From contig JALONG010000007.1 of the NCBI GenBank assembly GCA_025455065.1, forward strand, positions 1 through 64,000: a stretch of DNA of 64,000 nucleotides, read 5' to 3'. Position numbers and translations under genes: made by a program. Under the pieces are notes generated by a model that was not told the DNA's origin, did not search any database, and worked only from the letters and a program-made list of their open reading frames with translations. Within the stretch, counting starts at the first letter, position 1. The number at the start of each line of letters is the position of its first letter. The stretch is from Candidatus Kapaibacterium sp. (GTDB taxonomy: Bacteria; Bacteroidota; Ignavibacteria; Kapaibacteriales; UBA4661). This document shows positions 57,837 to 62,047 of the stretch, one piece after another.

Positions 57837-58883
57837 TTACACCTCCACCCCCAAAAATTCCCTTACAACATCCGTCAGCACAGCAAACTCAATCAAAAAG
57901 CCATCGTGTCCGTAGGGTGAAGTAATTTCGACGTACTCCCCGCCCGGAATATGTTCCGCTAAAAAGCGCTGCTCTTCCGGCGGAAAAAGAATATCTGTTG
58001 AAATGCCCACAACCAGCGTCCGTGCTTGTATCTGCGCTAGTGCTTCTTCCACGCTGCCGCGCCCGCGCCCTACGTTGTGGCTGTCCATGGCTTTCGAGAG
58101 TTGCCAGTAAGAATGAGCATTAAAGCGCTTGGTGAGTTTGTCACCTTGATATGCTTGATACGACGAAGAGCGAAAACCGTCCAATTTGTCGTTGAATGGT
58201 TCTGCTTGTGTTTTCCCAAAAGTTTCGTAATTGCGGTACGACAAAATACCAATGGAACGCGCCGCTTTTAATCCTGCCAAACCAGCATCCAAGCGGTCTT
58301 CAAAAAATGTAGCATCGGCTTCCAAAGCCAAACGCTGCGATTCGTTAAAAGCAATACCCCAAGGAGAATGTTTTGCATTGGTCGCCATCGGAATAATCGT
58401 CTCAAAGACCGTCGGCTCCAAGATTGCCCACTCCAACAGCTGCTGACCACCCATGGAGCCGCCTAAACCGACGAGGATTTTTTCAATGCCGAGTTCTTGA
58501 CGTAGTAGCACGTGCGCTCGCGCCATATCTCGTGTTGTTACCTGCGGAAATGTTCGGAAATAGGGCGTTTCGGTTGTGGGGTTGATGCTTGCCGCGCCCG
58601 AAGAGCCGTAGCACGAACCCAACATATTGGCGCAAACGATGAAGTATTCTGCGGGGTCGAACAAGCGTCCCGCACCAATAAGTCCATCCCACCAGACAGC
58701 CGCATCGGAATTGCCCGTCAGGGCGTGGCAGACCCACACAACGTTGTCCTTTGCGGTGTTCAGTGTGCCGTAGGTGTGATAGGCGATGTCGAGATGCGGC
58801 AGCGTTACGCCATGTTCAAGGGAAAACGGTACTTCAAGGCGCAAGGTTTTATGCGGTGTGGAGATAAATTGTGGCATACTCAT
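57837..58883 (-). CDS. metX: homoserine O-acetyltransferase
   Basis: An alpha/beta-hydrolase-fold acyltransferase activating homoserine with acetyl-CoA for methionine synthesis, 348 residues from the chosen start. The signature NVVWVCHALTGNSDA is followed by VGLGGSMGGQQLLEW (catalytic Ser), a TDILFPPEEQ segment (Asp) and SPYGHDGFLIEF (His). NMLGSCYGSSGAASINP is the oxyanion region. Acetyl- versus succinyl specificity cannot be decided from sequence with certainty. Start at 58883; ATG at 58922 would add 13 residues. metY, encoding the next step, is two genes upstream on the same strand. Confidence 0.93.
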   Translation of the reverse strand: MSMPQFISTPHKTLRLEVPFSLEHGVTLPHLDIAYHTYGTLNTAKDNVVWVCHALTGNSDAAVWWDGLIGAGRLFDPAEYFIVCANMLGSCYGSSGAASINPTTETPYFRTFPQVTTRDMARAHVLLRQELGIEKILVGLGGSMGGQQLLEWAILEPTVFETIIPMATNAKHSPWGIAFNESQRLALEADATFFEDRLDAGLAGLKAARSIGILSYRNYETFGKTQAEPFNDKLDGFRSSSYQAYQGDKLTKRFNAHSYWQLSKAMDSHNVGRGRGSVEEALAQIQARTLVVGISTDILFPPEEQRFLAEHIPGGEYVEITSPYGHDGFLIEFAVLTDVVREFLGVEV

Positions 58884-58992
58884 GGCGTTGTGGTGAAAAA
58901 AGTGGGTATGAACAGAAATCAATCAACAAGCGATATTGACAACAGGGAACGCTGATGAAGCCAATGATTCTTGTGATGAAGATGATTTCTCT

Positions 58993-59118: not shown

Positions 59119-60249
59119 TTAGTGTGTGCCGTTGTCGTCGTGTGGGTGATGCGTTTTCTCACCCGCATCAATTCTCGTTTTCAGCCAATTTACACGCGGT
59201 GGAAGCGGACAAGTTGCAAAGTTCGTAAAGGCGCAGGGTGGATTTTCTGCTTTGTTGAAATCCAGCACCGTTACGCCGTTTTGCGGAAATTCTGCGTAGA
59301 GAAATCGTCCCGCAGGATAGGTCTCGTTTAACCCCTCTTTGCCACTTGTTTCATCGCGGAAATTGATAAAGAGTTTCTTGCCTTCTTGTTCCGCTTCCAG
59401 CGTGTATTGCTTTCCACGCAGCGTAAATGCTAGTGTTCCAATGGCAGTGTGCTTTTCTAAACCGCCCAAGATGTTTTCTATTTCTATCGTTTTCGGTTCT
59501 GCGTAGGGCGTAAAATGAGCCTCCGTGCGAAATTCCGGCTTGACGGGAAACCATGTGCAACCTTTGAAGTTTAACCGCGCCGCACTCGCTTTGTCGCGCA
59601 AACGAATACCGAAGCGCAGTCCCGTTTTGGTTGTCCGCCGCACAACGAACATCGAAAGGTCGCCAATGCTGATAACGTCAGGTCTTGTGCCGTTATCATC
59701 GTCGTAAGCAAGCGTTTGTGAACTGTCTAAAATCGGATTGACAGGCGTACCGTCAGCGCGGGTAATGCTCACTGGCACGGTCGTAACGGGAAAGAAGTGC
59801 AAACGCGGGTTTAGCGTGTCGCCGTCCAGACGCAAGCTACCAAGCGTTGCAGGGGCTTTTTTCGGTAATAACACGTTGCTGGAGGGAATCGTTCCAAGCC
59901 AGTTCTCACCTTGCTTTAGCCAATACAAGCCAGCCACAGCCAACCAACCGTTTTCAGCACGAAGTTTCGCTTCACGGGTTTTGCGCCATTCGGTGATTTC
60001 TGCGGTGTAGTTATTTGGTTGCTTAGTTGCTTGGTTACTTGGTTGCTTGGTGTTTGGTTGCTTTGGGCTTGGTTGTTTAGTTGCTTGGGGAAGCGAGGGT
60101 GTGGGAATGTGGCTGGTTGTGTGCGTATGGGCATTACTTGTGTGCGCACGCAAAAACGCCGTTGCTCCTGCCAAAACAAGAACAACAGCGCATAATTCAA
60201 GAAAAACGCTGGATGGTATCACAGAGGTACATCGCTGAAGATGGAACAT
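59119..60249 (-). CDS. DUF1684 exported protein
   Basis: A 376-residue protein. An N-terminal signal/anchor (FLELCAVVLVLAGATAFLRA) is followed by a low-complexity K/Q/P/N linker (about residues 45-75) encoded by short TTGGTTGCTT-type DNA repeats. The DUF1684 domain begins ITEWRKTREAKLRAENGWLAVAGLYWLKQGENWLG and ends with the diagnostic FNKAENPPCAFTNFATCPLPPRVNWL and AGEK. The family is widespread and its activity unknown. It lies between metY and metX, on the same strand, with a strong hairpin between metY and itself. Confidence 0.85.
   Translation of the reverse strand: MFHLQRCTSVIPSSVFLELCAVVLVLAGATAFLRAHTSNAHTHTTSHIPTPSLPQATKQPSPKQPNTKQPSNQATKQPNNYTAEITEWRKTREAKLRAENGWLAVAGLYWLKQGENWLGTIPSSNVLLPKKAPATLGSLRLDGDTLNPRLHFFPVTTVPVSITRADGTPVNPILDSSQTLAYDDDNGTRPDVISIGDLSMFVVRRTTKTGLRFGIRLRDKASAARLNFKGCTWFPVKPEFRTEAHFTPYAEPKTIEIENILGGLEKHTAIGTLAFTLRGKQYTLEAEQEGKKLFINFRDETSGKEGLNETYPAGRFLYAEFPQNGVTVLDFNKAENPPCAFTNFATCPLPPRVNWLKTRIDAGEKTHHPHDDNGTH
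60020..60090. repeat. short degenerate TTGGTTGCTT repeats inside the DUF1684 gene
   Basis: About seven imperfect copies of a TTGGTTGCTTxG unit encode the KQPxxKQPNxKQPSNQATKQP linker. Such tracts are prone to slippage, so the linker length is likely to vary between strains. Confidence 0.6.
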
Positions 60250-60329: not shown

Positions 60330-61682
<1,353 letters not shown>

Positions 61683-61746
61683 TTACTAAAAACGTTGTGA
61701 ATAAAAGAAGAATTGTTGTTATCTAGATTGATATTTGCGTCACATG

Positions 61747-61787
61747 AAAAACAAAAAGCCGTTCCCACGTGGAAGTGAGAACGGCTT
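61747..61787 (-). terminator. intrinsic terminator in the metY leader (attenuator)
   Basis: A 13-bp stem (61787-61775 with 61768-61756, one G-U pair) and 6-nt loop, then UUUGUUUUU, about 95 nt before the metY start. Its 5' arm and loop can also pair with 61852-61841 (GTGAGAA with TTCTCAC, CACGT with ACGTG, 4-nt bulge), an exclusive antiterminator. Together with the Met/Cys leader peptide this indicates attenuation. Confidence 0.85.
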
Positions 61788-61821
61788 GTATCAAAGTTTC
61801 GATGAAATTTCGTATTCGATT

Positions 61822-61905
61822 CTATGAAGGAAGCAACACATTCTCACACGTGCCACGCATACAGCAGCACATCATCATGCACATTTGCATCATGACGGGT
61901 TTCAT
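61822..61905 (-). CDS. Met/Cys-rich leader peptide of metY
   Basis: A 27-codon frame (ATG 61905, stop TAG at 61822-61824) just upstream of the attenuator terminator. Eight codons are Met (positions 1, 5, 6, 8, 10, 11, 12, 16) and five are Cys (9, 13, 14, 15, 20), packed between codons 5 and 20. The composition fits a leader peptide whose translation senses charged tRNA-Met and tRNA-Cys. An in-frame ATG at 61950 would add 15 codons. No strong ribosome binding site is visible for either start, as is common in this lineage. The stop is about 35 nt before the terminator stem. Confidence 0.7.
   Translation of the reverse strand: MKPVMMQMCMMMCCCMRGTCENVLLPS
61841..61852 (-). promoter_or_regulatory. 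candidate antiterminator strand in the metY leader
   Basis: CACGTGTGAGAA at the end of the Met/Cys codon run is complementary to the 5' arm and loop of the downstream terminator (61781-61766), giving 12 base pairs with a 4-nt bulge. Stalling in the early Met/Cys codons would leave it free. Confidence 0.6.
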
Positions 61906-61999
61906 GCTGTTGTTGCTTGTCGCAGCGATATGGAATTGTGTTGGGTGCATCAAAAATTGATGGTATCGTAACGGATGATTGTGGTCATTGTTGTTGATT

Positions 62000-62021
62000 A
62001 TTGCGAACCAACTTTCGCAAT
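62000..62021 (-). promoter_or_regulatory. dyad overlapping the metY promoter start region
   Basis: ATTGCGAA and TTCGCAAT form a perfect 8-bp inverted repeat with a 6-nt loop, overlapping the last bases of the -10 and the predicted start. It could be an operator or a 5'-end stabilising hairpin. Confidence 0.5.
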
Positions 62022-62047
62022 GTACAAATCGTTTTTTGCAAAGTCAA
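62019..62047 (-). promoter_or_regulatory. metY leader promoter
   Basis: TTGACT, 17 bp, TACATT on the minus strand. The predicted start near 62012 gives a ~360-nt leader. The same TTGACT-N17-TAxATT arrangement precedes leuA. Confidence 0.75.

Follow-up and report, generated by a model that had tools for sequence, protein, structure and literature searches.

Methionine genes are known mainly for their control by riboswitches, T-boxes and repressors. In the stretch of DNA analysed here (the window; 64,000 nucleotides of Candidatus Kapaibacterium sp., contig JALONG010000007.1, positions 1 to 64,000 of the forward strand), a minus-strand metY gene is preceded by a short open reading frame (ORF) that is crowded with Met and Cys codons. 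This raises the question of how such a leader might control the genes behind it. A preliminary description had claimed that the leader has the classic layout of ribosome-mediated attenuation, with a near-consensus promoter, a 13-bp intrinsic terminator with a U-tract between the short ORF and metY, and a good ribosome binding site for metY. The promoter and the terminator were located as claimed (Table 1), and the metY start codon (ATG 61652) was preceded by GAGGAGA. The motif TTG-N18-22-TAnnTT was found upstream of the leader in 14 of the 16 leaders examined. In the window, the terminator stem (61787-61756, minus strand) is followed by TTTGTTTTT, and the fold of the leader RNA has a z of -5.0. 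The window leader matched no Rfam family, either at the gathering score or up to an E of 1. A SAM riboswitch of any Rfam class was thereby rejected for this leader, as was a T-box, whose covariance model also gave no match.

Table 1. Features of the metY leader and operon in the window, and loci of other Bacteroidota in which a SAM-I aptamer precedes a leader.
Feature	Position or loci	Strand	Remarks
Promoter-like TTGACT - 17 nt - TACATT(G)	62019..62047	(-)	9/12 matches; also fits the Bacteroidota-type TTG / TAnnTTTG promoter
Leader peptide ORF	61822..61950	(-)	42 codons, MHPTQFHIAATSNNSMKPVMMQMCMMMCCCMRGTCENVLLPS; start from N-terminal conservation in the genus
Strand 1 (protector), 5' part of the ORF able to pair with strand 2	61921..61942	(-)	Co-variation between genera p = 0.005; also in the MFE
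Met/Cys run, codons 20-31 (MMQMCMMMCCCM), proposed sensing codons	61858..61893	(-)	11/14 codons; 0/500 randomised sequences match
Strand 2 (antiterminator), within the final codons of the ORF	61834..61857	(-)	Core GTGAGAATG 61847-61839; partner of the terminator 5' arm, with co-variation between genera
Intrinsic terminator, strands 3 and 4 (AAGCCGTTCTCAC TTCCAC GTGGGAACGGCTT)	61756..61787	(-)	13-bp stem, 6-nt loop
Terminator U-tract (TTTGTTTTTC)	61746..61755	(-)	Directly after the stem
metY, O-acetylhomoserine aminocarboxypropyltransferase / cysteine synthase family	60330..61652	(-)	TIGR01326, 677.9 bits against a cut-off of 495.1
DUF1684 protein between metY and metX	59119..60249	(-)	PF07920, E 8e-41; same gene order in G009
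metX-like homoserine O-acetyltransferase at the end of the presumed operon	57837..58922	(-)	Best match TIGR01392, 351 bits, below the curated cut-off of 500
SAM-I aptamer 3-14 nt before the leader ATG, without a strict intrinsic terminator behind	L025, L027, L030, L032, L035, L038, L042, L047, L051-L053, L058, L063, L068, L078, L079, L082, L084, L090, L095, L096, L098, L100		

The short ORF had been described as starting at ATG 61905, with 13 Met or Cys codons among 27. This frame (61905-61822, minus strand) is present as claimed, but its start was revised. The leader ORF most likely opens 15 codons farther upstream, at ATG 61950, because the N-terminus common to the relatives (MxxxQFxIA) maps there. 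The leader N-termini of the genus align as MHPTQFHIA, MRNTTLNIA, MSTTQFNIA and MQNQQFNIA. The resulting leader has 14 Met/Cys codons in total, 11 of them in its densest stretch of 14 codons. Among the 598 short ATG ORFs of the window, the runner-up reached 6/14, and none of 500 randomised leaders attained the value observed in the window leader. In 192 kb of related loci, the richest short ORF other than the met leaders reached 8/14. All readable metY leaders of the window's order, Kapabacteria, showed the same excess of codons for the amino acids of the operon.

The three genes behind the leader lie on one strand. The closest named relatives are Candidatus Kapaibacterium or Ignavibacteria MAGs. 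The MetY family (TIGR01326) is able to make both homocysteine and cysteine, which fits the mixed codon run. metE (TIGR01371) was absent from the window's genus. The position of the DUF1684 gene between metY and metX is kept in G009, and a role of its protein in sulfur amino acid metabolism is possible.

In each Kapabacteria leader, an antiterminator strand predicted to pair with the 5' arm of the terminator was located within the last ~10 codons of the ORF, 3' of the Met/Cys run, and would therefore be masked if translation runs to the stop codon. The preliminary description had proposed that the segment 61841-61852 pairs with the 5' arm and loop of the terminator. This was borne out, for the arm and part of the loop, by a predicted duplex of -18.6 kcal/mol. 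The antiterminator core and the terminator arm changed together between genera: GTGAGAATG and CGTTCTCAC in the window's genus, GGAGTGGC and GCCATTCC in L015, and GGAAGGG and CCCTTCC in L013. A permutation test was performed with 13 leaders, one per genus or lineage. The own antiterminator:arm pairs had a mean of -16.8 kcal/mol, compared with -13.1 (sd 0.83) for pairs permuted between lineages; the own value was not equalled in any of 20,000 permutations. The pairing between the ORF start (strand 1) and the antiterminator strand also co-varied (p = 0.005), more weakly than that of strands 2 and 3, and its partner positions varied.

The switch was examined in 15 leaders by masking a ribosome on the leader and folding the remaining RNA. 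With the ribosome placed mid-run and strand 4 still to be transcribed, pairing between the antiterminator and the terminator arm was predicted in 15/15 leaders. When the ribosome was placed at the stop codon, the terminator formed in all 15. Together with the co-variation, these predictions agree with the earlier claim that the two folds exclude each other, and they suggest that the choice between them depends on the position of the ribosome. Once strand 4 was present, most leaders favoured the terminator as the more stable fold, and this held even when the ribosome was stalled. Antitermination must therefore win kinetically, as in trp.

Conservation in relatives had been set beforehand as a point on which the proposal could fail, and it did not fail there. 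We examined 61 genomes, the window's own and 60 relatives, with a metY threshold of E <= 1e-80. metY was found in 16 of them, and two of these genes were cut at a contig end. Upstream of all 14 readable metY genes of the order, which cover seven genera, stood a Met/Cys-dense ORF and, behind it, an intrinsic terminator. The terminator lay 22-38 nt 3' of the leader stop in 16/16 Kapabacteria leader loci, and leader, terminator and antiterminator were conserved across the order. In G033 and G026, which have metX without a metY match at the cut-off, the leader and the terminator stand before metX. The leader peptides were only 18-68% identical to that of the window, and the invariant residues were M1, one Cys and one Met. 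The density of Met/Cys codons was kept while the peptide sequences and the order and spacing of Met and Cys varied, as expected for codon reading and not for peptide function.

A leader profile was searched against the window's own and 20 related genomes. In the window's genus, each genome gave one strong match, always at metY, and the leader regulon therefore looks small. No strong match was found in G003, where metY is cut by the contig end. Weak matches in G019 (E 0.15) and on contig 13 of G016 (E 0.27) look like chance, as no Met/Cys leader ORF was found there.

Several loci of the order had individual features. In L013 (G016, about 1080-1500), two tandem Met/Cys leader-terminator units, each with its antiterminator pairing, precede one metY. 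In L109 (G009, 1-520), an intact leader and terminator stand ahead of a metY remnant, with the DUF1684 gene and metX next; the remnant is possibly due to a large internal deletion or to an assembly error. In L131 (G018), a His leader peptide (MLIVIAHHHHLHLPFQASRRWCA, with HHHH) and a terminator were found upstream of hisG, an indication that ribosome-mediated attenuation is used elsewhere in the order. In the window's genome and in four relatives, no obvious leucine leader was seen ahead of leuA.

We conclude, with a probability of about 0.88, that the leader controls the metY-DUF1684-metX operon through ribosome-mediated transcription attenuation, with the supply of charged tRNA-Met and tRNA-Cys as the signal. 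The codon composition, the positions of the parts, the conservation of the terminator and the co-variation of the alternative pairings were read from the sequences, and from them we infer translation of the ORF, stalling and termination. When Met and Cys are plentiful, the leading ribosome would cross the run and reach the stop codon, where it would cover the last ten codons and, with them, the antiterminator strand; the terminator would then form and transcription would end. A shortage of Met-tRNA or Cys-tRNA would stall the ribosome in the run and leave the antiterminator strand free to pair with the emerging 5' arm of the terminator, so that RNA polymerase could enter metY. Without translation, the ORF start may pair with the antiterminator strand, which would again favour termination. 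The location of the Met/Cys run between strands 1 and 2, not inside strand 1, was counted against the attenuator. So was the possibility that translation begins internally, at the AUG codons of the run.

It is likely, judging from the codons, that both Met and Cys are sensed. A narrower form of attenuation, not an alternative to it, is that the leader reads methionine alone, with Cys codons that are incidental, or else that it reads cysteine alone. The dominant amino acid is one that we infer from codon use: the Kapabacteria runs are Met-biased (79 Met:41 Cys) and some leaders (L017, L120) have only one Cys, both of which favour a single signal. However, all Kapabacteria leaders have Cys in or beside the run, and several have CCC or an alternating MCMC. 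The leaders behind SAM riboswitches described below are Cys-biased, and Cys is therefore probably a signal in those related loci. We consider the reading of a single amino acid unlikely. The variable order of Met and Cys bears on another explanation, a nascent-peptide sensor in which the Met/Cys peptide would arrest the ribosome when the peptide or the ribosome binds SAM, methionine, cysteine or a metal, with the same folds following. Such a sensor would give an identical layout, and Met/Cys-rich peptides can bind copper and other soft metals. Yet arrest peptides keep residues at defined positions, whereas these leaders mainly keep density, and the genes under control here, metY and metX, are not metal genes. 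Its probability appears small.

The short ORF has a promoter and a terminator to itself and could also be drawn as a small gene whose functional Met/Cys-rich protein is the product, the terminator just closing its own transcription unit. This is very improbable to us, as the peptide sequence is not conserved and the ORF lies directly before metY or metX. Its C-terminal codons also follow the RNA pairing, with REN being the translation of the antiterminator core GTGAGAAT. ATG/TGY-rich DNA is repetitive by nature, and a low-complexity ATG/TGC repeat could by chance stand next to an unrelated terminator. We give this explanation almost no weight. In 14 of 15 leaders, none of 500 randomisations reached the observed Met/Cys density, short ORFs other than the met leaders stayed at or below the 8/14 given above, and the arrangement recurs at every readable metY of the order. 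A chance origin of the Met/Cys ORF is refuted by this conservation.

Ribosome-mediated attenuation itself is classical. The leader resembles the trp, his, leu, phe and thr attenuators of Enterobacteria in its short ORF rich in regulatory codons, its alternative antiterminator, its intrinsic terminator and the biosynthetic operon behind. It differs from them in its codons (Met and Cys), in its phylum, and in having the antiterminator strand inside the ORF just before the stop, with the run between strands 1 and 2. Vitreschak et al. in 2004 reportedly predicted leader attenuators in Bacteroidetes/Chlorobi, together with a leader of thrA in which Thr, Ile and Met are read. Leader peptides ahead of amino-acid operons are also mentioned for Flavobacterium psychrophilum (PMC9723704). 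The novelty that had been claimed for a mixed Met/Cys leader has to be corrected, since a leader peptide containing Met and Cys codons, metL (CMCRRMCAF), had been predicted earlier before metNIQ, a methionine gene set of Streptomyces lividans (PMC8079986). According to the available part of that report, metL differs from the present leader in that it concerns transport and not synthesis, is leaderless, showed no typical intrinsic terminator, has no described antiterminator, and contains about 5 Met/Cys codons compared with 11 here (PMC8079986). Leader peptides predicted before cys operons in Mycobacterium and Propionibacterium and before cbs in Bifidobacterium likewise have runs of Cys codons in a short ORF ahead of sulfur-amino-acid genes, but these actinobacterial leaders contain Cys only and lack a conserved terminator hairpin (PMC1262725). 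The uORFC-8-2 motif before cysS in Rhodobacterales shares Cys codons in a uORF, a terminator and proposed attenuation; it has two Cys codons and its target is a cysteinyl-tRNA synthetase (PMC8632094). A search of the open-access literature turned up no account of a Met/Cys leader in front of metY or metX, of a mixed Met/Cys leader other than those given above, or of such a leader being joined to a SAM riboswitch. The novelty lies in the target, in the clade, in the complete and conserved attenuator, and in the pairing with a riboswitch.

The SAM-I riboswitch (S box, RF00162) is the other element found in this position: it binds SAM, is absent from the window's leader, and lies upstream of metY in many Bacteroidota. 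Within the window's order it was found in one genome, where it precedes metX in place of a leader (L123 of G031, 2631-2729). At 40 of 76 metY loci of other Bacteroidota, an upstream short ORF was richer in Met/Cys than any of 60 shuffles, with about one such locus expected by chance. Most of these leaders showed no strict intrinsic terminator behind them and may act through a different fold, Rho or translation; the four of the 40 that have one belong to Chitinophagales or unclassified Bacteroidota, and one of the four (L040) has a strong antiterminator too. A SAM-I riboswitch was found in 27 of the 56 metY loci of other Bacteroidota that were scanned with Rfam. In 25 of the 27, an ATG located 3-14 nt (mostly 9) after the aptamer opens an ORF of 37-51 codons. 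The last 14 codons of the ORF include at least 5 Met/Cys in 24 of the 27, often as CCCC or CCCCC right before the stop; in one of these 24 (L036), the unit stands ahead of another gene, at a distance of 1.5 kb upstream of metY. Leaders behind a SAM aptamer were Cys-biased (59 Met:133 Cys), whereas those without an aptamer were Met-biased (68:42, a tally that includes the unscanned L087 as lacking SAM). The association was significant in a genus-level test that left out L087 and ignored phylogeny (p = 0.0005). The Marinilabiliales-type metY leaders L028 and L069 share a hairpin (GACGCATCATATCTG...CAGATACCGGTGCGTC and similar) without a U-tract; it follows the stop codon of a Met-rich leader, ahead of metY, and is perhaps another kind of switch.

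These results suggest that the leader and the SAM-I riboswitch share the sensing of sulfur amino acids. We lean, at little better than even odds, towards a previously undescribed, Bacteroidota-wide layer of Met/Cys leaders over homocysteine synthesis, which would take two forms. One would be a stand-alone attenuator with a terminator, in Kapabacteria and some Chitinophagales. The other would be a composite in which SAM-I ends 3-14 nt before the start of a Cys-biased leader, and SAM gates the translation of a peptide that reads cysteine (and methionine). Absence of the riboswitch would then track the shift from Cys to Met codons.

The order-wide Met/Cys attenuator suggests that the sensing of charged tRNA by the ribosome also controls methionine genes, in a phylum whose leader peptides have been little studied. 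The wider setting with SAM riboswitches is the most surprising part. The placement of leaders directly after a SAM-I aptamer points to a single RNA in which a metabolite sensor is combined with a translation sensor, and this gives the SAM riboswitches of related Bacteroidota a concrete, testable role.
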